Part shown: positions 21,056 to 43,775 of the stretch, piece by piece | Layout: the number at the start of each line of letters is the position of its first letter | How positions within the stretch are numbered: the first letter of the stretch is position 1 | DNA from: Bacillota bacterium | Lineage (GTDB): Bacteria; Bacillota; JADQBR01 | Reading direction: 5' to 3' | Assembly (NCBI GenBank): GCA_016278515.1 | Contig: JADQBR010000015.1 | Location: forward strand, 1-64,000 | DNA: 64,000 nucleotides | Notes under the pieces: model-generated | Database searches by the model: none | Told to the model about the DNA's origin: nothing | Seen by the model: only the letters and a program-made list of their open reading frames with translations | Translations under genes and position numbers: made by a program

Positions 21056-21931
21056 ATGCAGTTAATTAATCGATACATTTCTATTTTTGTGATTATTATA
21101 TCAGTCACCTTAATATCTGTTTTACCAACACATGCCGGCACCAGCACAAGTAATAACCGAATAGTAATAACCGTTAACGACAATATAGTTGCAAGTAACA
21201 TACCGCCTTACATTAATTCCGACAATAGAACCATGGTCCCTATTCGATTTATTGCGGAGGCTTTACATAGTGAGGTAAGTTGGGATGAGGCCAGTAAAAA
21301 GGTTACTGTGAAAAGAGATGGCAATATTGTTAACATATGGCTTGATAAATACACTTACACTGTCAACAATGTGTCTCATAAGATGGATACAAAACCAACA
21401 TTGATTGACCCTCCCGGCAGAACGTTTATCCCTCTCCGTTTTGCGGCAGAAGCATTGGGGGCTAATGTCGAATGGATTACCCAAGGCAATATCAATTATG
21501 TTAGGGTAAATGATAATACGTACGAACCAACATCACAACAAAATACAGAAATGACTGCTGAAGAACAGCAAATGATAAACCTGGTTAATCATGAAAGGAC
21601 CTCTCGGGGACTAGCTCCATTAAAAGTATCTATGGAGCTAGTGAAGATTGCACGGCTTAAGAGTCAGGACATGATAGTCAATAGCTATTTTGCACATCAA
21701 TCGCCAACTTATGGCTCCCCTTTTGAAATGATGAAACAGTTTGGTATTAGTTTTTCTTATGCAGCGGAAAATCTAGCGGGGGCACCCCAAGTTGGTACTG
21801 CCCATACAAATCTAATGGACAGCAGTGGGCACCGTGCTAATATATTGAATTCTAATTATACTTCCATTGGGATAGGCATAGTGGATGGTGGAAAGTACGG
21901 TAAAATGTTTACCCAACATTTTACCCGATAG
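21056..21931 (+). CDS. Secreted protein: copper amine oxidase N-like domain plus CAP domain
   Basis: A 291-residue exported protein. After a signal peptide come stalk-type repeats of the copper amine oxidase N-terminal family (RTMVPIRFIAEALHSEVSWD and RTFIPLRFAAEALGANVEW), usually cell-wall or surface associated. The C-terminal half is a CAP/SCP domain of the bacterial YkwD type: LVNHERTSRGLAPLK, the His of FAHQSP, AENLAG and SSGHRANILNSNYTSIGIG. The last codon and the stop lie inside the structured repeat that starts at 21925. Function unknown; spore-coat and wall roles are known for relatives. Confidence 0.88.
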   Translation: MQLINRYISIFVIIISVTLISVLPTHAGTSTSNNRIVITVNDNIVASNIPPYINSDNRTMVPIRFIAEALHSEVSWDEASKKVTVKRDGNIVNIWLDKYTYTVNNVSHKMDTKPTLIDPPGRTFIPLRFAAEALGANVEWITQGNINYVRVNDNTYEPTSQQNTEMTAEEQQMINLVNHERTSRGLAPLKVSMELVKIARLKSQDMIVNSYFAHQSPTYGSPFEMMKQFGISFSYAAENLAGAPQVGTAHTNLMDSSGHRANILNSNYTSIGIGIVDGGKYGKMFTQHFTR

Positions 21932-22109
21932 CTAACCGCCACTAATTCCCCAGTTAAGGAATGGGGACACACCTGCTGAAGATAGGGTTAATCTTTGAGG
22001 GCAGGAATGTCCCCGATGTAAAAGGGGATAAGTGGTGCTAAGCTCCTGGATAGGCTTAACTAAACATCAGATGGGTAAAAAACCCCACCTGATGCAAGTT
22101 TTCGCTTTA
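21925..22109 (+). repeat. Structured dispersed repeat, copy 1
   Basis: This 185-base segment is repeated in inverse orientation at 43588-43775 with roughly 85-90% identity by eye. It can fold into a closed RNA-like structure: an outer stem joining GCCACT near the start to AGTGG near base 110; an inner stem GGGGACA ... TGTCCCC extended by CTGC with GCAG; a small AAGC/GCTT hairpin; and a 3' hairpin CATCAGATGGG with its complement. It begins two codons before the end of the CAP-domain gene and supplies its TAG stop. No protein is encoded. The following 213 bases to 22322 show nothing I can name. Confidence 0.85.
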
Positions 22110-22322
22110 TAGGTAACTAGGGCCGCACTTTCACCTTAAGATGCTTTACTATATGCACATTCCTATATTTATTTGTTCTTCACTTACCTCCCTAAACTCT
22201 CATTTTCCCACTTATTTCTAGCTATTCGATTGTTTTCTCATTATGCGCAAAATGAAAGCGAAAGTCTTACAAACTCTCCCGACAAAGCTAGGGGTTAACA
22301 TCCTTTGCTGCAGTGGTTTGGT

Positions 22323-22910
22323 CTATTGAATTCTAATAAGCAGCGGAACTAATCTGCCCCGCAGTTCACGGGCTACGTTTTCAGCTAAAACTCTATATAC
22401 CCCAGGGCCTACCTGTCTTCCTCTGTTAGTTATTTGGTCCCAATTTGCCCTAAATATTTGAGTTTCACCCGGTCGCAAAGTTATTTTCTGTGAAACTTGC
22501 GTAAACACTCTATCATCAGACCATTGCCAAATGATGGGTCCGCTGTAACCTCTTCTGACATAAAAATCAAATCTTTGACCTGTATTGTAAGTTACCGTGA
22601 TGGGCCTGGAAGAGACGTTGATTTTTACCAGCATCAGCCGTACCGGTTGGTCACGAAAATAATACATCCTATCCGTAGACAAAACATACAAAATCCCATT
22701 TACTAAACGCGAGCTAAAGTTTCGTACAGGTCTAGGTGAGGATACTGTAGGCGGTATCATGGGAATGGGAATTCGTATTATTGCTCTAGCACGTATTTGG
22801 TCAGGGCTTGAAATACTGTTTATCTCCATAATCTCTGGTACTGAAACACTATAATGCCTGGCAATACTTTCCAAATTTTCCCCAGGCAGTACTTCGTGGG
22901 TGATGTGCAA
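22323..22910 (-). CDS. LysM and BsuPI-domain protein
   Basis: A protein of about 195 residues with an N-terminal LysM domain (HEVLPGENLESIARHYSVSV, then IMEINSI) for peptidoglycan or spore-wall binding, and a C-terminal BsuPI intracellular proteinase inhibitor domain (VTYNTGQRFDFYVR, WQWSDDRVFTQ, ITLRPGETQIF). The start is taken as TTG at 22910, 7 bases after GGAGG; an ATG 14 codons upstream has no such site. No signal peptide is seen, which fits a spore-associated protein made in the mother cell. This domain pairing is common in Clostridia. Confidence 0.85.
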   Translation of the reverse strand: MHITHEVLPGENLESIARHYSVSVPEIMEINSISSPDQIRARAIIRIPIPMIPPTVSSPRPVRNFSSRLVNGILYVLSTDRMYYFRDQPVRLMLVKINVSSRPITVTYNTGQRFDFYVRRGYSGPIIWQWSDDRVFTQVSQKITLRPGETQIFRANWDQITNRGRQVGPGVYRVLAENVARELRGRLVPLLIRIQ

Positions 22911-23125
22911 TGAAATACCTCCTTTACAACTTTTACTATAATATATGCACAATAGAACATGGACGTACCTAATGTGGACAATATTATGTCGAAAGGTGTC
23001 AGCCTGAGGAAGTATTAAACCTTAAATAAAGTAAATAAATTGATCCTATATTTAGCATTGTTTACATTGTTCTTTACCAAAAGGGCAAAATATACAGTAG
23101 GCAGATTTCTGAAAGGGGCATTGCC

Positions 23126-23677
23126 GTGTTTAAATTAGAACAAAGGCAGGAATTCATCAGAGGGTCTTTAGCCGGGGCCATTGGTGCTACAGTTAAATAT
23201 GGTTTTAATGAACTGATGCAAGCAGTCAACTTGGCCAAATATGATAACAATGCCACTGCAATCACAGTCATCATGAAAGGCTATGAACATAACCTGGCAT
23301 TTTGGTTATTCGGGTTTATGACAGCTTTAATAATCGGCGCCTTTTTCGGAGTAATCATTGCATTTATGTTTTCTTATATCTTAACCGAAGAACATTACAT
23401 AATTAAGGCAGTCGGGGTGGGAGCGGGCATTTGGTTATTTAATTTTGGCATAACCGCTAGAATATTCCACTACCCCGCAGACATAACGTGGCATTTAGGC
23501 GATGTAGTAACGATGCTGCTCAGTCTCATTCTTTACAGCGTAATAACTGTCTATTCCTTAAAAGTGATGGGTTTTTTCCAAACCGAAAATCAGGTGGCAG
23601 AACGGGAACAACCTGTGAAAGTCTCAAAAGAATACAATAATATAGATAGACAGCCAATGAGAAAACCAAGGGATTGA
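23126..23677 (+). CDS. Four-helix membrane protein, paralogue of the one at 32230
   Basis: A 183-residue protein with about four membrane helices between residues 12 and 150 and a charged cytoplasmic tail. It starts at GTG 23126 after GAAAGGGG. Its layout (GSLAGAIGATVKYGFN at the N-terminus, a long second helix after a loop, AVGVGAGIWLFNFGI) parallels the protein encoded at 32230-32859, so the two form a paralogous pair of unknown role. I do not recognise a named family. Confidence 0.75.
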   Translation: MFKLEQRQEFIRGSLAGAIGATVKYGFNELMQAVNLAKYDNNATAITVIMKGYEHNLAFWLFGFMTALIIGAFFGVIIAFMFSYILTEEHYIIKAVGVGAGIWLFNFGITARIFHYPADITWHLGDVVTMLLSLILYSVITVYSLKVMGFFQTENQVAEREQPVKVSKEYNNIDRQPMRKPRD

Positions 23678-23740
23678 GGCCGAAGTTGAGGATGAGGGGG
23701 GGAGGAAAAACAAACTAAAAAAACCTATAAAATTAAAACA

Positions 23741-23768
23741 TTAAGGAGACCAAAGTTGGTCTCCTTAA
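23741..23768 (-). terminator. Terminator between convergent genes
   Basis: A perfect 12-bp stem (23741-23752 with 23757-23768), followed on the minus strand by TGTTTTAATTTTATAGG and a T-rich run. It mainly serves the minus-strand gene at 23801. Confidence 0.8.
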
Positions 23769-23800
23769 TTCTAATCCATACTCGAAGAAATCTTTACTAT

Positions 23801-24640
23801 CTATTTTAACCAATCAGGTAATTCATCCACCTGGCGCCCTTGATAGCGGCATCTAATATAACGGCATGTTTTGCAAATACCTTTGTTAGCAGGGACAGCA
23901 GGTTCGCCTTTAATTTCGTTTTCGATAAAGTCAATAGTTCTTTCAACTGCTTCTTCGCTGCCTTCAACTGCTAAGACTACGGCGCCCTCGTTACCGCCAA
24001 CCCCGCCTGAGGCTACATGTGTCGCCTTAACGCCAAATAATATATCCAGCGCTTCTATCTCAGTTACAACGATTGAATTGGTAATACAATAAATTCCGAA
24101 ATCTGCACCGAGAGAGTGATCAATGCGATGGGCGCCTACGGCAGCCGCGGCTTCTTTGACGGAAGGAACTAATTTTTCCAGGCCCACCGGCGTGATATAT
24201 TTAAGTCCTTGAGAAGTTACGGTGCCTATTATTTTAGGGATGGTGCCTCCATCGAATCCAGCGGTAACAACTCCCACGTTGCCTTGTGTATCTACTGCAT
24301 TTGCACCTTTAATGACTATAGTTTCTTTGTGAAAGTCTTGAAATGCTTCCGGTATAGTCTTATCAACCGGACTGCCTTTATGTAAAATGTTCGGAAAAGG
24401 CTTTCTTGCGTCGGGATCAGTAATACATAGCACACCATTAGTGCTTGTACCGACGGTGGCACGGTGGGGTTCAAAATCCCTTGTTCCCAATATTTCCTGG
24501 GCCACATACCCATTTGTAGTGCCTCCAGCTAAAATTATATACGCGTTTTCTTTGGCTTGCTTCACTTCCTCCATGGACGCTACCCCTTTAGCTAGCAAAC
24601 GCTTGGATTCAGCTGACTTAAGTGTAAAAACTACTTTCAT
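23801..24640 (-). CDS. Conserved protein of unknown function, ISOCOT-like
   Basis: A 279-residue soluble protein. The N-terminal half (FTLKSAESKRLLAKGVA, ILAGGTTNGYVAQEILG) looks like a sugar-isomerase/CoA-transferase-type (ISOCOT) fold with a glycine-rich loop; a middle segment IKGANAVDTQGNVGVVTAGF and GLEKLVPSVKEAA recalls the same fold. The C-terminus carries CKTCRYIRCRY, a possible three-cysteine metal site. No catalytic assignment is possible. It is monocistronic with its own terminator. Confidence 0.65.
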   Translation of the reverse strand: MKVVFTLKSAESKRLLAKGVASMEEVKQAKENAYIILAGGTTNGYVAQEILGTRDFEPHRATVGTSTNGVLCITDPDARKPFPNILHKGSPVDKTIPEAFQDFHKETIVIKGANAVDTQGNVGVVTAGFDGGTIPKIIGTVTSQGLKYITPVGLEKLVPSVKEAAAAVGAHRIDHSLGADFGIYCITNSIVVTEIEALDILFGVKATHVASGGVGGNEGAVVLAVEGSEEAVERTIDFIENEIKGEPAVPANKGICKTCRYIRCRYQGRQVDELPDWLK

Positions 24641-24724
24641 TAAACAATTCCCCTCTCATTAATAGTTCCATCTCATACTTAGTTTCTCTAAAAATTAAGG
24701 GAAATCCTTCTACGAATTTTTATA

Positions 24725-24753
24725 TTGGTATAAATCTAGACAATTGTTATAAT
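24725..24753 (+). promoter_or_regulatory. Sigma-A promoter of the transporter gene
   Basis: TTGGTA (24725-24730), 17 bases, then TATAAT (24748-24753), 44 bases before the start codon. Confidence 0.6.
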
Positions 24754-24796
24754 AAAGGGTATGTAAGAAATATTATCAAGACGAGGCGAATTTGAC

Positions 24797-26152
24797 ATGA
24801 AGAACATTTTATTATTTACACTTGGCATTACTGGCTTGCTCTATCAATTCTATGCATTTCCCGGTGCACAATACCTACTGCCGACATTGGCACTATTAAC
24901 TATAGTATGGTTTTTACCCAATCTTAGCAAGATTCCCCGTATTTCAAGCATTGTTATGTTAGTAGCAGGTAACCTTATTTTTTTTATAGAAGACGGTCTA
25001 TCTTATAGTAATTGGAGCTACGGATTTCTGAAATCCATGCCTATTGTAGCCTTATTTCTATTTGTGCCCCTGTTACAAATCCCTATTGAATTGGGAGGGT
25101 ATACAAAATATACGGAACGGTTTGCCCGTACAAAACTATCAAGCCCAGGCAGGTTCTACTGGGTTACTGCCGGGATTTTCTTTCTGCTAGCGCCGGTACT
25201 TAATCTTTCTGTCTACAGAATATATTACGATATTATGAAAACGGTTCCTCTCAGCAAAAAAACAATCACTCTCAGCATGCAGCGCAGTTTTACCTCCGTT
25301 GCCACCTGGGCGCCATACTTTGTTGGCGTGGGCTTAATCGCATCTTATGTGCCGTTTAAAATATTAAATTTCTTAACAGCAGCTATCTTTATTGCATTTA
25401 TACAGTTATTAGTCTGTTACTTACTTTACCTCTGGGATGTCCGTTCAGAGAAATTTGTCATACCAGCTGATTTTGCCAATAATAAGGATAAAGAGGCCAC
25501 AAAGAAAATGATCGGTTTGAGCTTATGGATGCTCCTTCTTTTGGTAACTATCATTCCATTAGAAATTTTGCTTGGCAAAAAGATGATTGTGGTAGTAGCT
25601 ATAGCTGCCATTTTCCAATCCTTTTTTTGGTCTTTATTTTTAGGTAAAGCGAAGCAGTTTATGATGGAATTAAAACCTTACTTTCAACAACGAGGCGCTC
25701 GGGTTATTAATGAGACGGTCTTTTTTCTCTCTGCCGGATTTTTTGCGGAAATATTAAATCGTTCTTTTGTAGGAACTTGGATTGCTAACCACATTGTTTA
25801 CCTTACCCAGACCTCATCCCTCTTTTTTACAATTTTACTAATTATGATGGTAATCCCTCTGCTGGCAGCAGCGGGCATTCACCATATGATTCCAATCATT
25901 GCAATTGCTTCAACTATTCCGGCAGAGGCATTAGGCATGCCGGTTACACTTTACGGACTTATGTTTACCATCACTTGGGGGACGTCGGCACTGATTTCCC
26001 CTTTTAGTCCAATGAATGCTTCAGTAGCCAATACGGTAGACCTTGACCAATTTAAAGTAGGCCCCATCTGGAATGCGAAGGCTGTATTAATCCTAATCGT
26101 TGTTATGAGTATCGTATTATATGGCCTCACATGGCTCCCGTTACCTTTATAG
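24797..26152 (+). CDS. Polytopic membrane transporter, ion-transporter-like
   Basis: A 451-residue, very hydrophobic protein with about eleven to twelve membrane helices. The repeat-like placement of polar helix breaks, with GIHHMIPIIAIAS and TWGTSALISPFSPMNASVAN in the second half, resembles the ion transporter superfamily (ArsB, NhaD, DASS, gluconate types). The substrate cannot be inferred; neighbours give no metabolic hint. The ATG at 24797 follows a GAGGCG ribosome site and a good promoter. Confidence 0.7.
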   Translation: MKNILLFTLGITGLLYQFYAFPGAQYLLPTLALLTIVWFLPNLSKIPRISSIVMLVAGNLIFFIEDGLSYSNWSYGFLKSMPIVALFLFVPLLQIPIELGGYTKYTERFARTKLSSPGRFYWVTAGIFFLLAPVLNLSVYRIYYDIMKTVPLSKKTITLSMQRSFTSVATWAPYFVGVGLIASYVPFKILNFLTAAIFIAFIQLLVCYLLYLWDVRSEKFVIPADFANNKDKEATKKMIGLSLWMLLLLVTIIPLEILLGKKMIVVVAIAAIFQSFFWSLFLGKAKQFMMELKPYFQQRGARVINETVFFLSAGFFAEILNRSFVGTWIANHIVYLTQTSSLFFTILLIMMVIPLLAAAGIHHMIPIIAIASTIPAEALGMPVTLYGLMFTITWGTSALISPFSPMNASVANTVDLDQFKVGPIWNAKAVLILIVVMSIVLYGLTWLPLPL

Positions 26153-26225
26153 AAGAAATAATCCCCGTCGCATCGCAATGGGGATCAATCACTATTTGAC
26201 AAAAATATGGATACGAACTTAATTA

Positions 26226-26927
26226 CTATTGTTCTTTCTTATCCCAACCATCATCACCTCTGATTACTTCTTTTGGAGCATCTTCGTCATCTAGCCCATA
26301 TTTGTCTTCATATAGAACCCCGTCTGCGCCTTTAAAATAGGCAATTCCTTCCACCTGTTCAACTTCTCCGATTACCTCATTCTCATCCGCTCCACCATAA
26401 TAGGAACCAGCCCCGCTATGCTCGGTATGCTCGCTATACTGCATTGCATCCTGCCAAGTATCTTCGCCATCATACCCTAAAGAATCATCATACGTTCTGC
26501 CGGGATAACTTCCATATGGCATTGACACGACTTGCTCTTCAATTGGTCTTTCCTCAGGATTACCATGCCCTTCAGCTTTCTCCTTACAATTTATGCACAT
26601 ATCAGTCTCAGGCTCAGCGTCCAAACGCTCCTTGGGAATTGATTGATGGCATTCTACGCATTCTCCGTAAGTTCCGTCTTTTATTCTAACAAGGGCTTCA
26701 TCTATTTTGGATAACCAAATATTAGCCGTATCCCGTAACGCAAAGTCTTTGCTTCGTTCAAAGGTTTCTGACCCGATATCTGCTGGGTGATTATCATAAG
26801 TAGATAACTCACTAATGGAATCCTTAAATGAATTGAACAACCCTCCTTCATTAATATCTCTAATTTCCTCTTGCGCAACTTTTCTTTTTTTAAGCAATTC
26901 TTGTTTATATTGGTTAAAATTAAGCAC
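26226..26927 (-). CDS. yteA: YteA-type DksA/TraR zinc-finger protein
   Basis: A 233-residue protein with an N-terminal coiled-coil segment containing DNHPADIGSETFERSKD, then a DksA/TraR C4 zinc finger (GECVECHQSIPKERLDAEP, MCINCKE) and a C-terminal acidic extension with YGLDDEDAPKEV, all as in Bacillus YteA. Members are expressed in stationary phase or sporulation, and DksA relatives act at RNA polymerase. It starts at GTG 26927, ten bases after AGGAGG. The middle is rich in Gly, Tyr and acidic residues and is poorly conserved. Confidence 0.88.
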   Translation of the reverse strand: MLNFNQYKQELLKKRKVAQEEIRDINEGGLFNSFKDSISELSTYDNHPADIGSETFERSKDFALRDTANIWLSKIDEALVRIKDGTYGECVECHQSIPKERLDAEPETDMCINCKEKAEGHGNPEERPIEEQVVSMPYGSYPGRTYDDSLGYDGEDTWQDAMQYSEHTEHSGAGSYYGGADENEVIGEVEQVEGIAYFKGADGVLYEDKYGLDDEDAPKEVIRGDDGWDKKEQ

Positions 26928-27104
26928 AAAAAATCATCCTCCTAATAGAAAACTCCATTCTTTTGTTAGCTTTCCACATCAAACAACTGATACGCCAGGA
27001 AATCCATGCCAAACCACTGACATTTTTTAACCCTAATTAAATACTTCTAGTTGGGAAAATTATTAATGTGGTGAAGAAAATCCTATTCATTGGAGGTGCG
27101 GAAA

Positions 27105-27278
27105 ATGGCTAAAAAGAAAGCTAAAGTATCCAAAGCGCTGCAGCAAAACCAAAAATATAAGCAGGAAACAGGACAAATGAACCAAGCAACCAGCCAACAA
27201 ACAAAAACGGTTCAAAAAGCGCAGCAAAACATCGAAAAAAGAGAACAGCAGCAAACGCCAAAAGAGTACAATAAATAA
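27105..27278 (+). CDS. Small Gln/Lys-rich protein, possibly spore-related
   Basis: A 57-residue, highly charged peptide beginning MAKKKAKVSKALQQ and rich in Gln, Lys and Thr, with no hydrophobic core. GGAGG lies 8 bases before the ATG at 27105. Its composition recalls small acid-soluble or gamma-type spore proteins, but the FASETN signature is missing. Function unknown. Confidence 0.6.
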   Translation: MAKKKAKVSKALQQNQKYKQETGQMNQATSQQTKTVQKAQQNIEKREQQQTPKEYNK

Positions 27279-27336
27279 TCTATTAAGAAATTTTTATAGA
27301 AAATTCTTTGGCCCGAACATGCTTACTTCTTCTATA

Positions 27337-27750
27337 TTACTCCAGCGGCACCCCTTTGACTACTGTTCTGTCTGTGCTTATATGAGAATAAGGACAGACA
27401 AAGACAATTATTAATTGGTTGCCGCTCGAGTTAATTAACTGGTGAACTTCACCCGCAGTCACAGTAAAGCAATCACCGGCCACAACTTTTACTGGTTCTT
27501 TCCAATCTACTTCCCCATCACTCCTAGGTGAGCCTATAAAAATGTTTCCGGTGCCCTCTATAATTTGATACAGTTCAATTCCTTCATTGTGATAGTGAGC
27601 CCCCACCCTCTTATATCCGTCAATTCCAGCGGCATAAAAGGCTACGATATCATTACCGGTTAATTTGGATATTCTTATCCCCACTGCTCCATCCGGCTTA
27701 GCCTCTTTTAGTGCTTCTTTTATGTTACTTAAATCAAGTGTACTATTCAT
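27337..27750 (-). CDS. Cupin-domain protein
   Basis: A 137-residue single-domain cupin. The metal-binding motif is seen as GAHYHNEGIELYQIIEG and the second motif as GDCFTVTAGEVHQLIN, giving the two His, Glu and third His set. Small cupins of this type bind Mn, Fe or Zn and have varied enzyme or ligand-binding roles. Monocistronic. Confidence 0.82.
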   Translation of the reverse strand: MNSTLDLSNIKEALKEAKPDGAVGIRISKLTGNDIVAFYAAGIDGYKRVGAHYHNEGIELYQIIEGTGNIFIGSPRSDGEVDWKEPVKVVAGDCFTVTAGEVHQLINSSGNQLIIVFVCPYSHISTDRTVVKGVPLE

Positions 27751-27842
27751 GTTATCCTACTCCTATCCTGTGAACTAAGGAGGTACCCTCCTTTTATCTA
27801 TTCTGATAATATTTATAACTTTTCCGCAAAATAAATTAAGGC

Positions 27843-28031
27843 TTGCTCTATATGGTTTTATCGTCTGTTTCCTTTATATCTGCGGCTGCAAAATCCCTAC
27901 ATATAACTGAACTGGAAAATGTGACTGCAGGCACAGCCATCTCCCATCGTATGGGTGGCGTACTTTGGGGATTAGTACTAACCCTAATCCTCTATTGGCT
28001 AGACAATAAATTTAGGGAAAAAGGTGTATAA
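27843..28031 (+). pseudogene. Membrane peptide or transporter C-terminal fragment
   Basis: A 62-codon frame with one or two hydrophobic segments (GGVLWGLVLTLILYWL) ending 0-20 bases before a strong terminator. It has no clear ribosome site and looks like the last helix of a larger transporter, but could be a small membrane protein. Its ending at a terminator suggests that it is the true 3' end of a gene. Confidence 0.35.
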
Positions 28032-28056
28032 GGGAAGTTTCCTCATACACCTTTTT
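28018..28056. terminator. Bidirectional terminator
   Basis: A perfect 12-bp stem (28018-28029 with 28045-28056) with runs of A and T at the two bases of the stem. It lies between converging genes. Confidence 0.8.
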
Positions 28057-28064
28057 CCGTTATA

Positions 28065-28625
28065 TTAGGGCGATTTAAAAAGAATGAGTCCTACATATGA
28101 GACAGTATTCGCTCCATGATGGTACGGCATATTACAATGTTTTGTTAGGGATACGACATCAATACCGTAAGCTTCAAGAGAGGCCAATGCCTTGTCCGGA
28201 TATCTACATGGTTGGTTTTCTTCGTACGAACAACTAGCGCATATCTCGCAAGAACCTGCCCCCAATAACAATGTTTCTGTTATCTCGTATCTTTCTTTAA
28301 CCAATCCTAACGCTAAACGTAATACCTTCTCATGCGCTTCTTTTGCTGCCATCATTCCTTTCCAATCGAAAGAACTGGAAATAATATGAAGGGTCTGTAA
28401 TACAAGGCCTTGTTGATATTCTAAGGCTTCTTCCTTTAAGGTTGACAACGGCCCGACACCAGGCGGACAAGCCCAGTTGACGCCGTACTTTCCACATTGA
28501 TTCATTTCACAATACTTACGTACTTGGCTGGAAAAGAGAATATCATTTGTATCTACTATGGCAGCATTTTTTATGTTCAATTCCATTATGTCTTCTAATA
28601 ATTGTTGCTTATTTAGGGATTTCAT
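28065..28625 (-). CDS. DUF2284 metal-binding protein
   Basis: A 186-residue protein with the DUF2284 cysteine pattern: CGKYGVNWACPPGVGP, then CEICASCSYEENQPCRYP, and a further Cys near the C-terminus (KHCNMPYHH). DUF2284 proteins are predicted iron-sulfur or metal binders and occur mainly in anaerobes. The ATG at 28625 with GGAGC 8 bases upstream is preferred to an earlier start without a site. Role unknown. Confidence 0.85.
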   Translation of the reverse strand: MKSLNKQQLLEDIMELNIKNAAIVDTNDILFSSQVRKYCEMNQCGKYGVNWACPPGVGPLSTLKEEALEYQQGLVLQTLHIISSSFDWKGMMAAKEAHEKVLRLALGLVKERYEITETLLLGAGSCEICASCSYEENQPCRYPDKALASLEAYGIDVVSLTKHCNMPYHHGANTVSYVGLILFKSP

Positions 28626-28849
28626 ACTCTCGCTCCTTCTTAGGCAGACCAAACGGCACTAACCGAATATATGACACCATTAACTATATAATCAGTAATT
28701 ATCTCTGTCAACGTTTGACGTTGGTTAGTTGGCATATAAAAGTTTCCTTCAGTTATCAGTATTTACTATTTCACTGTTAAAGGATTTTACGCTTCCCTAA
28801 AGAATCTAGATACCATAGGGAAATTTAAATCACACTTTGGAGGCAAAAG

Positions 28850-29605: not shown

Positions 29606-29624
29606 TAGTTGACAAAATAACGTG

Positions 29625-29672
29625 AAAAGCCTGGATTTCAGCAGCACATGGTCTGAGGAAATTCAGGCTTTT
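29625..29672. terminator. Terminator of xth
   Basis: A 14-bp stem with one G-T pair (29625-29638 with 29659-29672), rich in A at the left base and T at the right. Confidence 0.75.
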
Positions 29673-29706
29673 ACTTAAAGCTCACTTTTAGAAGTATCGA
29701 AAAATT

Positions 29707-30506: not shown

Positions 30507-30522
30507 ATTAGACACCCTTCCT

Positions 30523-30873: not shown

Positions 30874-30884
30874 CTCCGTTATTT

Positions 30885-35379: not shown

Positions 35380-35423
35380 CATTAGGAAATTAGAAGAGAC
35401 TAGATAGAAGAGGAGAGATATCT

Positions 35424-36467
35424 ATGCAAAGCACAATTAACAAGCTGATTGAGAGGAAAAATTTGAGTCAACCGGAGGCTCAAGATTTCATGAGTGCAAT
35501 CATGTCCGGCCAGGTCACTGCGGCCCAGATAGGGGGATTCATTACTGCATTACGGATGAAAGGGGAAACCCCTGAAGAAATAACCGGCTGTGCTATAGCC
35601 ATGCGGGATAAAGCCGAAACTATAACCTGCGGTACTTCAACTATAGATACTTGCGGTACAGGAGGGGATCACTTAAGTACCTTTAACATTTCCACCACGG
35701 TGGCCTTCGTATTGGCCGGGGGCGGCCTGCCTGTTGCAAAGCACGGTAATCGTTCAGTATCCAGTCGCAGCGGCAGTGCCGATGTCTTAGAATCCCTAGG
35801 GGTTAATGTTAATCTTTCTCCCCAACAGGTTGAAGCTTGCTTTCAGAAAACTGGTATTAGCTTTCTTTTTGCCCCTATCTTTCATAAAGCCATGAAATAT
35901 GCAATTGGCCCCAGGCGAGAGTTAGGGTTCCGCTCTATTTTCAATCTGTTAGGTCCCTTAACCAACCCGGCCGGCGCCCAATATCAGTTGATCGGTGTTT
36001 ATGAAAAAAAGCTTACAGATACCTTAGCACGGGCACTTTTAAATATAGGAGTGGAGCGGGCCATGGTCGTACATGGAACGGACGGCATGGATGAAATTAC
36101 CTTAACGGGCATCTCCTATGTAAGTGAGGTACGAAACAATACTGTCATGAGCTATCAGATTGATCCCTCTACTTTCGGCATTAAGCATTGCAGTCCTCAA
36201 GAGCTAAAAGGCGGAACGGCTAAAGAAAATGCAGTTATTACACGACGCATTTTATCCGGCGAAGAAAAGGGACCAAAACGGGACATCGTCTTGCTTAATG
36301 CAGCTGCTGCCTTTTATATTGCCGGCAAAGTTTTCACTCTCCAAGAAGGTGTCATCCTTGCAGCGGAAGTGTTAAAAAAAGGTGCTGGGGAAATTATGCT
36401 GGATAAGCTCATTTCAGTCAGCCAATCCCTACCGGATCAAGATCAACCAGGGGTAGCTTATGTCTAA
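35424..36467 (+). CDS. trpD: Anthranilate phosphoribosyltransferase
   Basis: A 347-residue TrpD that joins anthranilate to PRPP. The PRPP site is seen as DTCGTGGDHLSTFNIST, with KHGNRSVSSRSGSADVLE and NLLGPLTNPA. The Mg-binding acidic pair lies near HGTDGMDEIT. Spaced 44 bases after trpG with its own GAGGAGAG site, it overlaps trpC by 8 bases. Confidence 0.96.
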   Translation: MQSTINKLIERKNLSQPEAQDFMSAIMSGQVTAAQIGGFITALRMKGETPEEITGCAIAMRDKAETITCGTSTIDTCGTGGDHLSTFNISTTVAFVLAGGGLPVAKHGNRSVSSRSGSADVLESLGVNVNLSPQQVEACFQKTGISFLFAPIFHKAMKYAIGPRRELGFRSIFNLLGPLTNPAGAQYQLIGVYEKKLTDTLARALLNIGVERAMVVHGTDGMDEITLTGISYVSEVRNNTVMSYQIDPSTFGIKHCSPQELKGGTAKENAVITRRILSGEEKGPKRDIVLLNAAAAFYIAGKVFTLQEGVILAAEVLKKGAGEIMLDKLISVSQSLPDQDQPGVAYV

Positions 36468-37263
36468 ATTTTTAAAGAAGATGTTAAGACTAAAACAGGA
36501 AGAAGTTTCAAAGGGCATGCAGTCCCTTCCGTATAAAGAGTTAATTAAACGGATTGACATTCGAAGCAGTACACCGGGTCATTTTTCCTCTGCCTTGGCG
36601 AGCGGCGGAGCAGTGATAGCAGAAGTAAAATATAGCTCCCCCTCTAAAGGGAGCTTTCAGATTACCCATAGTGTTAAGGAACTGGTGGCACAATACCAAA
36701 ACGGAGGAGCCTCAGCTATTTCCGTTCTCACTGAGCCATATTATTTCAATGGCAGCTATGAGAAACTGGAATTGGTGCGAAGCTCTACTAATTTACCCAT
36801 TTTACAAAAAGATTTTATTATTCACCCCTGGCAGATATACCGGGGAAGGGCCGCAGGGGCCTCGGCTGTACTGCTAATCGCTGCCCTCCTGGAGGATAGC
36901 CATCTTCAAGATCTTTACCATCAGGCACAGCAGCTGGGAATGGATTGTCTGGTAGAGGTTCACAATGGAGAAGAATTGGCCAGACTTCGCAGGCTTTCCC
37001 CAAAAATTATCGGTGTCAACAACCGTAACCTTAACACTTTAGAAGTCAACCTGGATACCTGCAAAGATTTAGCCAAAAGCCTGCCAAAAGACACACTGAA
37101 AATAGCGGAAAGCGGCATTAAAAGCAGCCAAGATGTTCAAAGGATTGCCGCCGCAGGCTACCATGGCATCCTTGTAGGAGAAGCCCTAGTCACCAGCAAC
37201 AACCCAGGGACTGTAATTAAAGAATACCAAAGGCAGTTTAAGAAAAGTGGTGCCCACCTATGA
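36460..37263 (+). CDS. trpC: Indole-3-glycerol phosphate synthase
   Basis: A 267-residue TIM-barrel enzyme with IAEVKYSSPSKG, SVLTEPYYFNGS, LQKDFIIHPWQIYRGRA, VEVHNGEEL, GVNNRNLNTLEV and AESGIKS, covering the catalytic Lys and Glu residues. It converts carboxyphenylamino-deoxyribulose phosphate to indole-glycerol phosphate. It is separate from trpF here, unlike the fused enzyme of enteric bacteria. Confidence 0.96.
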   Translation: MSKFLKKMLRLKQEEVSKGMQSLPYKELIKRIDIRSSTPGHFSSALASGGAVIAEVKYSSPSKGSFQITHSVKELVAQYQNGGASAISVLTEPYYFNGSYEKLELVRSSTNLPILQKDFIIHPWQIYRGRAAGASAVLLIAALLEDSHLQDLYHQAQQLGMDCLVEVHNGEELARLRRLSPKIIGVNNRNLNTLEVNLDTCKDLAKSLPKDTLKIAESGIKSSQDVQRIAAAGYHGILVGEALVTSNNPGTVIKEYQRQFKKSGAHL

Positions 37264-37952
37264 TCTCTCCATTAATTAAATGCTGTGGCATCACTAATAC
37301 CGAACATGGTAAATACGCGCTTACCAGAGGAGCGGATGCATTGGGCTTGGTGTTTGTCAACACCAGTTCCCGTTATGTCTCCCTTGAACAGGCAAAAGAT
37401 ATCACAACTGCAGTACTGCCGTCACAGAAACAGGTTGTAGGTGTCTTTGCTGACATGCCGGTGGAGCAGGTGGCGAAAACAGTTCAGCAAGTAGGCTTAA
37501 CCGGCATACAGCTTCACGGTAAAGAGACCGTGGAATATTGTATCAGGCTCAAAGAGCTAGTTGCCCAAGAGACAGCGGGTCCATGGCCCTTTTTGACCAA
37601 GGCCTTCTCCATGAGAAATAGCTCCAGTTTTAATTCAATACTGAAATATCATGCACATGTAGATGCTATCCTTTTGGATACTTATTCCGCTTCTGCACTG
37701 GGCGGAACAGGCAGTACCTTTGACTGGGGATTGGCTTGTCAATATGTAAAGCACTGGCCCCGACAGCCTTTAATAGTAGCCGGCGGTTTAAACAGCAATA
37801 ATGTTACTAGTCTTTTAGCCCAGGTAACGCCTCTAGGTGTGGACGTATCCTCGGGAATTGAAACGGCCCCCGGTGTTAAAGACAGAACAAAAATAGATTC
37901 ATTTATTAAAGCGGTTAAAAGAAAACGATTTAATGAGAGGAGTGGACTTTAA
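37260..37952 (+). CDS. trpF: Phosphoribosylanthranilate isomerase
   Basis: A 230-residue TrpF barrel with the catalytic Cys in IKCCGIT near residue 8 and Asp in LLDTYSASALGGTGSTFDW near 140, plus VAGGLNSNNV and GVDVSSGIE. It overlaps the trpC stop (ATGA). It has a slightly longer loop around 100-115 than typical. Confidence 0.94.
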   Translation: MISPLIKCCGITNTEHGKYALTRGADALGLVFVNTSSRYVSLEQAKDITTAVLPSQKQVVGVFADMPVEQVAKTVQQVGLTGIQLHGKETVEYCIRLKELVAQETAGPWPFLTKAFSMRNSSSFNSILKYHAHVDAILLDTYSASALGGTGSTFDWGLACQYVKHWPRQPLIVAGGLNSNNVTSLLAQVTPLGVDVSSGIETAPGVKDRTKIDSFIKAVKRKRFNERSGL

Positions 37953-39191
37953 ATGAGTTTTTCCCATCAGTTAAAAAATCAGCTTAATAAGGCAGGGTAT
38001 TTTGGAAAAAACGGTGGGCGTTTCGTCCCGGAAACTTTGATGCCGGCCTTGGAAGAGCTGTCCGCAGCCTATGACCACTATTCTAACCAAAAAGAATTTT
38101 GGCAGGAGTTAAATTACTACTTAACTGAATACAGCGGTAGAGTTACTCCCTTGTATCTGGCAAACCGGCTTTCAAAACAATATTCCACTAAAAAGTATCG
38201 GGTGAAAGCCTACTTAAAAAGAGAAGACTTAAACCATACGGGTGCTCATAAGATAAATAACGCCCTAGGCCAAGCACTATTAGCCAAGAGAATGGGGAAA
38301 AAACGCGTCATCGCTGAAACGGGGGCCGGACAGCATGGTGTAGCCACGGCCACAGTTTGTGCCTTATTAGGCTTAGAATGTCAGATCTATATGGGTGCTG
38401 TGGACATGGAAAGGCAGGAACTCAACGTCTATCGGATGCGACTGCTGGGGGCTGAGGTTATTCCTGTAACCAGCGGCTCCCGCACCCTTAAAGATGCCTG
38501 CAACGAGGCCATTAGGGACTGGGTTACAAACGTTGATGATACCTACTACATTATCGGTTCAGTAGTAGGGCCGCATCCTTATCCTTTAATGGTTCGAGAT
38601 TTCCAAAAGGTCATCGGTCAAGAAACAAAAATCCAAATTCAGGAAAAAGAAGGTCGCCTGCCTGATTTTATTGTTGCTTGTGTTGGTGGAGGCAGCAATG
38701 CTATGGGGATGTTCTATCCTTTCATTGATGAACTCGGCGTGCAGCTTTTTGGGATAGAAGCTGCCGGAGAGGGATTAACCAGCGGCAGACATGCAGCATC
38801 TATATCCAAAGGCCGCAAAGGAGTGCTTCATGGGTCCTTAAGCTACTTACTGCAGGATGATGCTGGTCAAATTGAAGAAGCTCATTCCATTTCAGCAGGT
38901 TTAGATTACCCTGGTGTAGGGCCGGAACACGCATGGTTAAAAGATATTGGGCGAGTGAATTATCAAGCTATCACCGATGGTGAAGCACTAACGGCGTTTC
39001 ACTCTCTAAGCCGACTAGAAGGAATTATTCCTGCATTGGAGAGTTCCCATGCAGTTGCATTTCTAGATAAGATGTCTCCATATTTTGAACAGATGGAAAA
39101 ACCGGAAATATTAGTTGTTGTGAATCTATCCGGTCGGGGAGATAAAGATGTGATTACTGTAAGACAGGAAGGGGCGTCCTTTGATGACTAA
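37953..39191 (+). CDS. trpB: Tryptophan synthase beta chain
   Basis: A 412-residue TrpB1-type PLP enzyme. The PLP Lys is in [17 protein letters not shown] near residue 97; the Ser/phosphate loop is [12 protein letters not shown], and the substrate segment is [13 protein letters not shown]. It condenses indole and serine to tryptophan in complex with TrpA. It starts where trpF stops (TAAATG) and overlaps trpA. Confidence 0.96.
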
Positions 39192-39993
39192 ATCAACCAG
39201 CCGTCTTGATAAGACCTTTACATTGGCCAAGGCCAGTGGACGAAAAGTTTTTATGCCTTTTATCACTGCCGGCTATCCTTCGCTAAAAGATACAGCGAAG
39301 CTGGTTGCTGCCATGTGCCGGGGTGGTGCGGATATTATAGAATTAGGAGTGCCTTTCTCCGATCCTTTGGCCGATGGACCGGTAATCCAAAAGGCTTCCC
39401 AAGCGGCTTTAATAAATGGAACTACCTTAAGCAAAGTACTGGATTTGGTTTCTGATATGCGCCATGGAAGTGAGTTAGGAGAAGTTCCAGTAGTGCTGCT
39501 CCTTTATTATAATACAATTTACGCTTACGGTCCGGAGCGCTTTGTAGCTGATGCCGTGGATTGCGGTGTTGATGGGATTGTAGTACCGGATTTACCTTAT
39601 GAAGAAAGTGGAGAGCTACGGGCCTTGGCACGTAGCAAAGGACTCGCCGTTATAGCTATAGCAGCGCCAACCACCAGCCCAGAGAGGCTTAAACGCATTT
39701 TGAAGGATGCCTCCGGGTTTGTTTACTACACCTCAGTTACTGGTGTGACCGGGACAAGAAAAGCTTTAAGAGAGCAGCTATCAGGCGAAATCGTCAAAGT
39801 CAAGCATGCTACTACGCTACCGGTCCTAATTGGCTTTGGCATTGCCAATGCAGACCAAGCTCGCCAAGCAGCGGTCATTTCCGATGGGGTTATTATGGGC
39901 AGCAGCTTAATTAACTTGGTAGAGAAATGTGCTCCGAGTGCGCTTCAGACGGAACTTGAAGAATATATTAGAGCAATAAAACTGAGCATTTAA
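39184..39993 (+). CDS. trpA: Tryptophan synthase alpha chain
   Basis: A 269-residue TrpA with FITAGYPS, catalytic Glu in [20 protein letters not shown], catalytic Asp in [22 protein letters not shown] and IGFGIAN. It cleaves indole-glycerol phosphate to indole for TrpB. The ATG at 39184 overlaps the trpB stop; TTG one codon earlier is less likely. Last gene of the operon. Confidence 0.96.
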
Positions 39994-40058
39994 TTCACAT
40001 AAGGACTATAATCCGAACAACTCTCCATGGGCCTCTATAAAATACCCTCTTTAAACTT

Positions 40059-40088
40059 TAATGCAGCGGCCCGTCGGCCGCTGCATTA
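40059..40088 (+). terminator. Terminator of the trp operon
   Basis: A perfect 13-bp stem TAATGCAGCGGCC (40059-40071) with its complement (40076-40088) around CGTC, followed by CATCTTTTATT. Confidence 0.8.
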
Positions 40089-40134
40089 CATCTTTTATTA
40101 ATTAAGCTTAAGGCTATTTGCTTTTTGCCTCAGC

Positions 40135-40800
40135 TTAAAACCCTTTTAAAGTTACTACTTCTTCAGTAGAACGCCTTGGACTCTGAAATTGTGTCTCAAG
40201 ATTTTCTTCATCAGCATAGCCTAGCGCTATGCCTATTGCTATGGATAAGTCTTCGGGTATTCTTAGTTCCTTCCGAATTAGATCCGGGTAACCTGCAAGC
40301 ATAATTGCAGTTATTGTATCTAACCCATACTCTTTCGCAGCCAGCATTATACTCTGCCCAAAGGCACCTATGTCATACATGGACCAAGATGTCAATTTAG
40401 AATCCATACAAAGATAAATTACCGCCGGTGCGTCAAAAAATCTGTAGTTTCGTTCGGCTAATTTTTGTCTCGCTTCTTTATCTCCGCGATCTATGCCTAA
40501 TAACTCGAATCTTTTTTTGCCGACTTCCGCCATCCGCTGCTGCATAGCATCAGGCCATTCTTTCGGAGTAGGGATATCGGGGCTAATATTTACCCCTTCA
40601 CCAAAATTTTTCAAATAAGCTTGACGCAGACTTTCTAACTTTTCTCCGCCTGCCACAAAGACTTCCCAAGGTTGCGTGTTGGCCCAAGAGGGCGTACGCC
40701 TAGCTGCTTCCATAATTTTAACAATAGTTTCCCCGCTTACGGGTGCAGGCTTGAAAGCACGGCAAGAATATCTGTCGTTAATAGCCTCTAGTACATTCAT
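40135..40800 (-). CDS. Nitroreductase family protein
   Basis: A 221-residue FMN-dependent nitroreductase. It begins EAINDRYSCRAFKP, the family's N-terminal FMN-binding motif, followed by RTPSWANTQPWEVFV and later QSIMLAAKEYGLDTI, with the FMN phosphate region near the C-terminus. It reduces nitroaromatics, quinones or flavins. It is a different subfamily from the remnant at 1-249. Monocistronic, followed by an imperfect hairpin at about 40104-40130. Confidence 0.88.
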   Translation of the reverse strand: MNVLEAINDRYSCRAFKPAPVSGETIVKIMEAARRTPSWANTQPWEVFVAGGEKLESLRQAYLKNFGEGVNISPDIPTPKEWPDAMQQRMAEVGKKRFELLGIDRGDKEARQKLAERNYRFFDAPAVIYLCMDSKLTSWSMYDIGAFGQSIMLAAKEYGLDTITAIMLAGYPDLIRKELRIPEDLSIAIGIALGYADEENLETQFQSPRRSTEEVVTLKGF

Positions 40801-41078
40801 TTAGCAATTCCTCCTCATAACATGTCTATCATTAGTCTACCCAAACCACATCTGAATTGTCAAATTACCCTAAAAACAAGTGTAACTTTTCCTTCTGTCC
40901 TTCTTAACTGTTACTATACATATGAACGAACTTCGAGGCAGGTATCCATATGAAATCGGAAGAGAAGGGATCAATTAATTCAATCAAGGATTACTTAATA
41001 CCGCTTCCAAAATAATAGTCAAAATAGGCTATCATTAATTAAAAAGATCTACCCCTTTTAAACTAATGTGCTATACTG

Positions 41079-41504
41079 TCATTTGTTAATAAAAATTAGT
41101 CCAATTATACACAGTACTATCCCAATTATTTTGTGCAATTCAAATGTCTCTTGGTAAAAGAGTACTCCAATGGGAATAAGTATTAGGGCAAGGCTAATAT
41201 TGGCTACCAATGAGCCTATGCTTAGGTCCCACCCTGCCCTATAAGCAAGCAGATAACCGATTTCCAGACCAACTATTGATAACCCCAGCACTAGGGTTGT
41301 CCAGTTTAAATCATAAATAGATTGCACGAAGCCTTTGTTCGTTTTATAAAACTGTGCTGCAGCTATAGTAAAAACAGCTGCGATTAAATATGTAATAAAT
41401 AATGCAGAAAAAGGATTAACATTCTGTGGCGTTGACTTTTGGGAAACGTTATACATAACATTTGAAATTATGACTAGTACTATAGGGAATACATAGACAA
41501 ACAT
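41079..41504 (-). CDS. EamA-type small membrane transporter
   Basis: A 141-residue protein with about five hydrophobic helices and the EamA/DMT half-length layout (VIISNVMYNVSQKS, AGWDLSIGSLVANISLALI, IGVLFYQETFELHKIIGIVL). Single-domain EamA or SMR-like proteins usually work as dimers. Substrate unknown. Confidence 0.8.
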   Translation of the reverse strand: MFVYVFPIVLVIISNVMYNVSQKSTPQNVNPFSALFITYLIAAVFTIAAAQFYKTNKGFVQSIYDLNWTTLVLGLSIVGLEIGYLLAYRAGWDLSIGSLVANISLALILIPIGVLFYQETFELHKIIGIVLCIIGLIFINK

Positions 41505-41650
41505 AGATTTTCTGACCCCACCTAAGATGAATTCTATTTCTGCATATTAATTCTTAATTTCATCACTAATAATTCAATTATAGCATATCTCGTCCGTGCC
41601 AGAATTTAATTCCCCACTGATAACATTTCCCAATTAAACTTAAGAACCGT

Positions 41651-41764
41651 TAGCAAAACTCTTAGCAACTTGTTGCTTTAGAGTTTTGGATATGCCCCTT
41701 GCGAGTATAGCAAAACTCTTAGCAACTTGTTGCTCTAGAGTTTTGGATATGCCCCCTGCGGGTA
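41651..41764. repeat. Two tandem 57-base repeats with internal palindrome
   Basis: Copies at 41651-41707 and 41708-41764 differ at only a few positions. Each contains AAAACTCTTAGCAAC facing its near complement GTTGCT-AGAGTTTT, so each can form a hairpin. They follow the proC-like remnant and may be where its 3' part was lost. Confidence 0.85.
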
Positions 41765-41821
41765 CCCCAAATTCAAGGTTTGAGGCGGGCAAGGACGGGC
41801 TCGAGTGCACGAATCCATGGT

Positions 41822-41890
41822 TTAACAGAAACCTGTCACAAGAGCCGAAGTAATTGTCCCTGTTCCGATAAAACCAATATCTTTTCCCAT
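41822..41890 (-). pseudogene. proC-like N-terminal remnant
   Basis: From ATG 41890 the minus strand reads GKDIGFIGTGTITSALVTGF and then a stop. This is the NADP-binding N-terminus of the pyrroline-5-carboxylate reductase family. The remaining 240 or so residues are missing and are replaced by unrelated sequence and the tandem repeats. The position just after the GntR gene suggests it was the last gene of the glycyl radical enzyme operon. Confidence 0.6.
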
Positions 41891-41906
41891 AATTCCCGCA
41901 CACCTC

Positions 41907-42563
41907 TCATTCCAAAATAGTCTTTTTCAGAGCCATGTCCTGGCCAGCATCCAGGTGTTCTCTGCGGAGAATTTCCATCGCTTCAGCGAATCGTTCCTCA
42001 CGGACGGCCTCTAAGAACCGATACAACCCCTCAATAATTTCCTGAACATGCCGCTTTTTTTTCTCGGACATAAGTCCAATTCGGATCAATTCATCCTGGT
42101 TATTTCTGTAGATGCGGTTGATACGTTCATTTTCGTAGACACTGACGATCTCCATGTGCATCTCGGTATCGGCGCGTTCCCATTCGTATCGATCATTTTG
42201 AGCCGCCTTCATGCGTACGACCTTTTCTTCAATGCGATGCGAGTATTCCCAGGTTTTCTTGAGATCAAAAATCATTTGGAGAGCATTACTTTCTAAGAGG
42301 CTCCGAAGCTGGTATATCTCCATAACATCTTTCCTTGTAATGTCTTTAACCCTTTTCTTCTTGCGAAAGCCAGCGACAATCCACCCCTCCATTTCCAACC
42401 GACGAACGGCCATTCGAATAGGCATTCGACTTGTCTCCAACTCTTCCGCCAGGGTTGCTTCTGTGAGAAAAGAACCAGGTGGATAAGTGAGATTAAGTAT
42501 CTTTCTCTTAATTCTGTCATAGGCTAAATCCATTAGAGACTGGCTTGTTTCCGTTTCTCCCAC
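41907..42563 (-). CDS. GntR/FadR-family transcriptional regulator
   Basis: A 218-residue regulator with an N-terminal winged helix (AYDRIKRKILNLTYPPGSFL, EATLAEELETSRMPIRMAVRRLEMEGW) and a helical FCD effector domain (DVMEIYQLRSLLESNAL ... TEMHMEIVSVYEN). The GTG at 42563 lies 7 bases after GGAGGG and 5 bases after the activase stop, so it is preferred to a start inside the activase gene. It probably controls the glycyl radical enzyme operon in response to its substrate. Confidence 0.87.
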   Translation of the reverse strand: MGETETSQSLMDLAYDRIKRKILNLTYPPGSFLTEATLAEELETSRMPIRMAVRRLEMEGWIVAGFRKKKRVKDITRKDVMEIYQLRSLLESNALQMIFDLKKTWEYSHRIEEKVVRMKAAQNDRYEWERADTEMHMEIVSVYENERINRIYRNNQDELIRIGLMSEKKKRHVQEIIEGLYRFLEAVREERFAEAMEILRREHLDAGQDMALKKTILE

Positions 42564-42567
42564 TTTA

Positions 42568-43572
42568 TCACCCTCCAACCTTTCTAGAGCTTTCCTCATC
42601 CTTTACCTTATGATCAGGAAGTTTTCCTGTAAAACCACCACCGATTCTGACCGGAACACTCATATTACACTTTGATAAAAGATTGGCTCGATCCATTATT
42701 CTTTCCAGGGAAGGCGGTTCCATGTCCTTTAACCGATAATCTACTTCAAGATTTTTATAGGTTTCTACACCCAAGCGATGATAAGGCAGCAGCTCTATCT
42801 CTTTAAGCTTATGGATAGACTTGCAAAATTCACCAACTGCTAATAGGTTTGCATTAGAATCATTTATCCCCGGAATTAAAGGAATGCGTACGATTATTTC
42901 CACCGGATATTTTGATTGGTCGATTCTTCGAATGTTATCATGTATTAGTGAATTACCAGTCCCAACCCACTCTTTATGGTTTCTCTGATCCATGTGTTTA
43001 ATGTCGACAAAGAGAACATCGAGCCAGGGTAAAACCTTTTCAATGCTCTTCCACGGAGCATGAAGGGCGGTTTCAATGGCCGTGTGTATCCCGCGTTCTT
43101 TGCATTCCCGCAATACTTCAGAAGTAAAATCCGGCTGATTTAAAGGTTCTCCGCCGCTGATGGTAACACCACCGCCTGAGTGAAAGAAAAAAATCTCATC
43201 TTTGGTGATCTCGCGTACCACCTCTGCCACGGACATAAAGCTTCCGTATTGTTTCATTGCTCTCTGAGGGCATTTCGCTACACAAAGAAAGCATTTTTGG
43301 CATTTGGAGGAATCGGTGCATACCTTCTGCCTGTCTGCAGAAAAGGAAAGAGCTCCCTCCGGACATGAGCGAACACATACTCCACATCCTATACAACGTT
43401 CCCTTGCATACCCTTTTTCTGGATCGGAACGTTGAGATTCAGGCGTTGAACACCAGCGGCATCTCAAGGGACACCCTTTAAGAAAAAGTACCGTGCGGAG
43501 CCCCGGCCCGTCGTGAATGGAAGTCCTCTCGATCCTAAGCACTGATCCTTTAACATCTGAGCCATTTTTCAT
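42568..43572 (-). CDS. Glycyl radical enzyme activase (radical SAM)
   Basis: A 334-residue radical SAM enzyme. The SAM cluster motif CPLRCRWCSTPES is followed by an inserted ferredoxin-like domain with two cluster motifs (CIGCGVCVRSCPEG and CQKCFLCVAKCPQ), typical of activases of dehydratase/decarboxylase-type glycyl radical enzymes. GGGVTISGGEP is the SAM-binding GGE motif. It makes the glycyl radical on the enzyme encoded upstream. The ATG at 43572 follows GGTGGGG, which sits at the edge of the structured repeat; a longer in-frame start would read into the repeat. Confidence 0.92.
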   Translation of the reverse strand: MKNGSDVKGSVLRIERTSIHDGPGLRTVLFLKGCPLRCRWCSTPESQRSDPEKGYARERCIGCGVCVRSCPEGALSFSADRQKVCTDSSKCQKCFLCVAKCPQRAMKQYGSFMSVAEVVREITKDEIFFFHSGGGVTISGGEPLNQPDFTSEVLRECKERGIHTAIETALHAPWKSIEKVLPWLDVLFVDIKHMDQRNHKEWVGTGNSLIHDNIRRIDQSKYPVEIIVRIPLIPGINDSNANLLAVGEFCKSIHKLKEIELLPYHRLGVETYKNLEVDYRLKDMEPPSLERIMDRANLLSKCNMSVPVRIGGGFTGKLPDHKVKDEESSRKVGG

Positions 43573-43587
43573 TAATATCACCCCACC

Positions 43588-43775
43588 TAAAGCGAAAACT
43601 TGCATCAGATGGGGGTTTTATACCCATCTGATGTTTAGTTAAGCCTATCCAGAAGCTTAGCGCCACTTATCCCATTTAGATTGGGGACATTCCTGCCCCC
43701 CAGTAGATAACCTAGGCTTTAGCAGGTGTGTCCCCTTTCCTTAACTGGGGGATATTAGTGGCGGTTAGCTATCGG
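43588..43775 (-). repeat. Structured dispersed repeat, copy 2
   Basis: Same element as at 21925-22109, read on the minus strand. The outer stem, inner GGGGACA/TGTCCCC stem and 3' hairpin are kept despite base changes; for example GTGGTG in copy 1 is GTGGCG here, still pairing with CGCCAC. It lies between the glycyl radical enzyme and its activase and supplies the enzyme gene's last six codons and TAA stop. Its far end abuts the activase ribosome site. Confidence 0.85.

Follow-up and report, generated by a model that had tools for sequence, protein, structure and literature searches.

The 64,000-nt stretch of DNA analysed here, called the window, comprises positions 1 to 64,000 of contig JADQBR010000015.1 from a Bacillota bacterium (assembly GCA_016278515.1). 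It holds two copies of a structured, gene-less repeat, copy 1 at the 3' end of a gene with Cu_amine_oxidN1 and CAP domains and copy 2 at the 3' end of a glycyl radical enzyme gene with PFL-like and Gly_radical domains (Table 1). A sequence-only reading of the window had described them as a pair of repeats with a common fold that supply the stop codons of these genes, TAG for the CAP-domain gene and TAA for the glycyl radical enzyme gene; both repeats and both stops are present, nearly at the limits proposed there, and the alignment identity of the two copies is 88%. The repeat is not confined to a pair, a covariance model placing it at 36 sites of the own genome, and it is a mobile, non-coding DNA family with precise insertion 3' of the pentamer TTTAT or a variant.

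Exact empty sites occur in other species for four of the four insertions examined (genomes and loci are given below by G and L numbers), in agreement with the mobile, non-coding nature proposed from the sequence. Copy 2 is absent from the glycyl radical enzyme gene of G048, the protein of which is 85% identical, and its flanks, joined without the element, align with G048 without gaps and with 99 of 129 bases identical through the junction GGTATTTCT/GTGGGGTGAT. G133 carries the L212 insertion and both G017 and G398 its empty site; two insertions at L180, filled in G130, are empty in G013, and G097 holds one flank only of one of them. In all four cases the element lies 3' of a pentamer present once in the empty site, and the pentamer at the right end is the element's own (TTGAT at a TTTAT target, TTTAG at a TTTCT target), so that no target duplication accompanies insertion. 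The constant feature of the insertion sites is the left pentamer TTTAT, found in 82 of 125 copies. Tandem copies abut as CTTTA(T/C) joined directly to CCGATAGC, which indicates insertion 3' of the right end of an earlier copy.

As seen by comparing copies, the basic (outer) element has a length of about 130 nt and consists of an imperfect hairpin 1 followed by hairpin 2. From the 5' side, the left pentamer TTTAT precedes CCGATRGCTAAC, a variable 7-bp stem with its loop, and CTAAGYYCCTGGATA; hairpin 2 (TTCAGATGGAGT...ACTCCACCTGAA and variants) and the right end, e.g., AAGTYTTACTTTAT, complete the element. In the consensus, palindromes lie near the termini, terminal inverted repeats are absent and the two ends are unlike. 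Right ends in 95 copies are TTTAT (68), TTGAT (12), TTAAT (11), and TTTAC (4), as counted with a search pattern that admitted only such ends, 30 of 125 copies having no such end or no matched core. Many blastn pieces in the own genome span a single part of the repeat, which is therefore modular.

Stem pairing in hairpin 1 is kept by covariation. Over 104 aligned copies 92.4% of the hairpin-1 cells are paired, the covariation score is 0.371 compared with 0.141 for shuffles and at most 0.058 for slid controls, and both sides have changed in 14 of 18 pairs; the test covers hairpin 1, and its alignment was fitted to the model, with a bias toward pairing. The forms of the 7-bp stem include CGCCGCT/AGCGGCG, TCGCTCT/AGAGCGA, and CTGCCCT/AGGGCAG. 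The conserved fold and the pairing-preserving change read earlier from the two window copies also stand, the CGCCAC arm facing GTGGTG in copy 1 and GTGGCG in copy 2. Hairpin 2 is supported by folding and sequence. Copy 1 folded as DNA (z -3.8) and copy 2 folded as RNA (z -6.7) are each more stable than 200 of 200 shuffles.

The GGGGACA/TGTCCCC inner stem noted in the sequence-only reading is present, but it is no part of the basic element and belongs to a separate unit of about 65 nt. Nested in the hairpin-1 loop, as in both window copies, this inner repeat produces the 186–189-nt composite form of the own genome and of G035; it is reversed in L017, L019, L022, and L042. It also stands alone at seven places in the own genome (L038, L040, L041, L044, L045, L046, and L049) and occurs in other genomes (L033, L034, and L037). 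The outer element of G035 is diverged and holds the inner repeat in the corresponding loop; L144 is a G035 copy that lacks it. In a comparison of two G035 and six G000 copies, inner repeats are 79–89% identical between the genomes and 81–88% within G000, outer right parts 62–83% between and 84–91% within, which suggests that the inner repeat may have arrived separately from the outer element; the left arms, however, are also alike between the genomes (77–94%). Many "empty" hairpin-1 loops of the own genome retain TTAAGG scars and, by eye, resemble deletion derivatives. Unrelated inserts are found in the hairpin-1 loop, in the hairpin-2 loop or between the hairpins at L189 (G108), L231/L083 (G382 and a Desulfoscipio metagenome-assembled genome, MAG), L257 (G123), and L258 (G341), which shows that insertions are tolerated there.

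In 36 loci of Y1 transposase genes a search for the whole inner repeat gave no match. Its GGGGAC/GTCCCC core recurs in the vicinity of RAYT-type genes, where 13 of 15 loci contain one or more of these hexamers (a raw count without an estimate of chance). At several of these loci (L155, L156, L157, L159, L169, and others) GGGGAC/GTCCCC repeats form inverted pairs around the genes. Intergenic runs of a heptad-like repeat, CCAACTGTCCAACTGACCAAC, lie near inner repeats at L028, L038, L041, L044, and L046 of the own genome.

The covariance-model search of the genome and its relatives that the sequence-only reading had suggested yielded many further copies. The model R1, for which 23 copies lacking the nested repeat were used, gives 37 matches in the own genome, two of which overlap on opposite strands and some of which are truncated (60–85 nt); 58 blastn pieces match the repeat there. 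In a sample of 398 genomes of the phylum, the own genome counted, 40 genomes and 33 of 266 genera have R1 matches; the scan scored at most eight candidates per genome, so that copy numbers are lower bounds, and two relatives from the same family gave no R1 match. An exact core pattern matched 24 stretches in named genomes, including Thermincola MAGs, Sporomusa acidovorans, Desulfosporosinus sp. I2, a Desulfoscipio MAG, and Candidatus Formimonas. Two exact-pattern scans for viral carriers gave no stretch.

Targeting of gene ends in the sense direction, as supposed from the two window copies, and targeting of terminators are rejected by orientation, stop-codon and terminator counts. Among 124 copies with distinct flanks, 10, including both window copies, supply the stop of a sense open reading frame (ORF) of 100 aa or more, and 19 that of an antisense ORF. 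The flanking genes, from simple ORF calls without a gene finder and in the orientation of the element, are ++ in 53 cases, -- in 36, -+ in 21, +- in 10, and otherwise arranged in 4. Strong hairpins are not enriched, lying just left of 11 of the 124 elements, compared with 37 of 354 other TTTAT sites in the same loci, and right of 4. The G048 enzyme ends in RTVQHGISVG*, and copy 2 is inserted two codons before that stop, supplying new last residues and TAA; the L212 copy and one L180 copy likewise end a sense ORF. The two sense stop codons in the window are most simply explained by chance together with tolerated insertions at gene ends.

Table 1. Positions of the two element copies, their parts and their host genes in the window.
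Feature	Position	Strand	Remarks
Copy 1, composite form with nested repeat	21925..22110	+	186 nt; limits by sequence
Left pentamer TTTAC of copy 1	21920..21924	+	Variant of the TTTAT site; from sequence and pentamer count
Hairpin 1 of copy 1	21925..22052	+	CCGATAGCTAAC arm to CTAAGCTCCTGGATA arm; loop enlarged by nested repeat
Nested inner repeat of copy 1	21954..22018	+	TTAAGGAATGGGGACA...AATGTCCCCGATG
Hairpin 2 of copy 1	22065..22095	+	CATCAGATGGG...CCCACCTGATG
Right end of copy 1	22096..22110	+	AAGTTTTCGCTTTAT
Gene with Cu_amine_oxidN1 and CAP domains	21056..21931	+	TAG stop inside copy 1
Copy 2, composite form with nested repeat	43587..43775	-	189 nt; empty site gives exact limits
Left pentamer TTTCT of copy 2	43776..43780	-	TTTCT once in the G048 empty site
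Nested inner repeat of copy 2	43680..43746	-	Converted from L003 coordinates
Hairpin 2 of copy 2	43603..43633	-	From sequence and RNA fold
Glycyl radical enzyme gene, PFL-like and Gly_radical domains	43755..46163	-	Last codons and TAA from copy 2

The sequence-only reading had matched the repeat to no known group. This holds for Rfam, none of whose 4227 families reaches its gathering score in the window and none of which matches over the element in nine further copies, but not for transposable elements, since anatomy and insertion style fit palindrome-associated transposable elements (PATEs) of the IS200/IS605 type. PATEs are gene-less IS200/IS605 members of Haloquadratum walsbyi, with near-terminal palindromes and without inverted repeats, target duplication or a gene (PMC3119063), and a PATE-like sequence is reported from Halanaerobium (PMC7290912). 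Like PATEs, the element has palindromes near its ends and no inverted terminal repeats, makes no target duplication, is too short for a transposase, and is dispersed and strain-specific; the nesting of small SMR-A repeats inside PATE palindromes resembles that of the inner repeat in hairpin 1 (PMC3119063), so that smaller repeats may often settle in hairpin loops. The element differs in being bacterial, in having two unlike hairpins close together, and in that the 36 Y1 loci yielded no parent IS605 element sharing its ends. By this comparison the element probably behaves like a PATE, short of fully established membership.

IS608 inserts 3' of TTAC, which is kept on the left, and its own right-end sequence is cut (PMC5934647). 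The element shares with IS608 and the IS200/IS605 group a precise insertion point 3' of a short fixed sequence, which is kept on the left, a right cleavage sequence carried by the element, and hairpins at the ends (PMC5934647). It differs from IS608 in having neither tnpA nor tnpB, in its target (TTTAT versus TTAC), and in that separate guide sequences are not established for it.

Insertion 3' of a retained pentamer without duplication, hairpins near the ends and a right cleavage sequence borne by the element point to transposition in the IS200/IS605 style. The selected two-hairpin structure (tested for hairpin 1), the precise insertion 3' of the pentamer, the lack of duplication, and the dispersal of copies rest on direct evidence; a single-stranded intermediate, a Y1 enzyme, and supply in trans are inferred. 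There is a fair probability that the family as a whole is a non-autonomous, ~130-nt two-hairpin element moved in trans by a Y1 (HUH) transposase of the IS200/IS605 type. One strand would fold while the DNA is single-stranded, and a Y1 transposase encoded elsewhere in the genome would recognise the hairpins, cut on the 3' side of the left TTTAT and of the right-end TTTAT, TTGAT or TTAAT that belongs to the element, and rejoin the element 3' of another TTTAT-like site; the stop codons would be tolerated insertions into last codons.

A PF01797 (Y1) match is present in 31 of 40 carriers compared with 194 of 358 other genomes, a comparison that is uncorrected for genome size or kinship and assumes the same draw of 398 genomes. 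Orientation relative to GC skew has a weak bias (67 to 45 of 112 copies, p 0.047; 50 to 33 at the strictest cut, p 0.078); the TTTAT background by strand is 602 to 616 in samples of G017 and 647 to 550 in samples of G385.

Several results weigh against the Y1 explanation. PF01797 has no match in nine of the 40 carriers, among them G123 (one contig, 100% complete) and G130, the genome with two of the four insertions for which empty sites are known, and neither Y1 nor TnpB was found in 6 of the 14 carriers tested for both. Both element ends occur at none of the 36 Y1 loci, where R1 gives one partial match (L147, 31.7 bits), and the likeness of the loop hairpin to the Y1 left ends of L148 and L149 is by eye only. 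In a predicted fold the right end pairs with a segment after CTGG in 55 of 95 tails, which does not establish an internal guide. In two single-contig genomes, 8 copies can be assigned clearly to a replichore, 6 in agreement with a lagging-template bias and 2 contrary to it, and two others are close to the terminus. Sister species have many copies in common at identical positions, as judged from flanks (e.g., L197/L213, L199/L207, and L206/L208), and activity may therefore be past.

No autonomous version was seen in ten stretches around partial or weak matches, which were scanned for motifs without gene calling; at L257 and L258 both hairpins lie within ~150 nt of each other, and at L259 and L260 there is no second hairpin on that strand. 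TnpB right ends, inspected by eye at 20 of 23 TnpB loci, differ from those of the element and were rejected as its source. At L298 (G048:C41) a reversed outer-element copy with an extra insert lies just after a tnpB stop, between it and sequence resembling the RNA region downstream of other tnpB genes. A copy at L193/L314 (G013:C18, ~190.5–190.8 kb), with an orthologue at L194 (G097), directly adjoins a truncated tnpB remnant and looks inserted into it. About 250 nt upstream of a Y1 gene of the own genome (L058, C42), ATAAGTGCGACTAAGCCAGCAAAGCTGGCAAGTCTTCTTTACC resembles the hairpin-2 foot and right end of other species, and possibly marks a related small element.

The carriers without PF01797 also bear on a different helper. 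The element could be mobile as described and be moved by another HUH enzyme or by an unrecognised hairpin-reading recombinase; besides those carriers and the Y1 loci devoid of element ends, this is favoured by G351 and G130, which have no PF01797 match, yet hold copies at mean identities of 0.93 and 0.88, respectively. The retained pentamer, 3' insertion, and lack of duplication are, however, the behaviour of IS200/IS605 enzymes (PMC5934647), helpers are easily lost, draft assemblies break at repeats, and divergent Y1 proteins may escape PF01797, so that a non-Y1 enzyme is a serious but distinctly less likely explanation. Somewhat more doubtful still is the bolder proposal that a single family in at least 33 genera is moved by a non-Y1 enzyme and offers its hairpin-1 loop as the preferred dock of an independent mobile repeat.

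An RNA-borne element, such as a small intron or a retro-copied RNA inserting by reverse transcription, would account for the strong structure with covariation and for some tolerance of G-T pairs on this strand (24 G-T versus 13 A-C cells in 52 distinct stems, misaligned rows included). In hairpin 2, however, an A-C is frequent on the same strand. Against such an origin stand the lack of an Rfam match, introns included (no search for reverse transcriptases was made), the size of ~130 nt, the absence of target duplication, and the persistence of the element in coding frame, where it supplies a stop codon instead of being removed; it is improbable. An ordinary, vertically inherited structured 3' untranslated region or cis-regulatory RNA, which would fit the copies common to sister species, is refuted for copy 2 by the gapless G048 orthologue and hardly credible in general, given three further empty sites, neighbours in all orientations, and tandem and nested copies.

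REP sequences associated with RAYT (TnpA-REP) share the dispersed imperfect palindromes and a presumed dependence on Y1 (PMC6006769), whereas the outer element here is ~130 nt, has two hairpins and flanks no Y1 gene searched; since neither it nor the whole inner repeat flanks Y1 genes at the 36 loci, a REP in a REPtron was rejected. A miniature inverted-repeat transposable element would likewise be short, gene-less, multi-copy, and mobile, and was rejected on the unlike ends, the absence of terminal inverted repeats, and the lack of target duplication at empty sites. omegaRNA/HEARO, group I and II introns, and other Rfam RNAs have no covariance-model match (engA scores 19.4 bits, its cut-off being 46). 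Integron attC sites have GTTRRRY/RYYYAAC boxes and are cut at G^TT; the junction here is TTTAT^CC and such boxes were not seen by eye in the consensus, which speaks against an attC site, no integrase search having been made. No description of the element family was found in the literature searched, ISfinder and most subscription papers lying outside the search.

The element adds a widespread, well-delimited, gene-less mobile element, the hosts of which are mostly uncultured anaerobes. Its exact empty sites and more than 100 aligned natural hairpin variants make it a good system for studying the recognition of folded DNA strands by enzymes, and with carriers in which no Y1 gene is detected, the question of which enzyme acts as helper can be tested.

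Two minor observations concern other features. The longest ORF of the activase gene (window 42568–43605, minus strand) begins within copy 2, and the G048 orthologue suggests a later ATG, following GGTGGGGTGAT, as the true start. In G108, L124:20–119 (minus strand) matches the Rfam family PYLIS_3, the pyrrolysine insertion sequence of mttB, with 89.3 bits.

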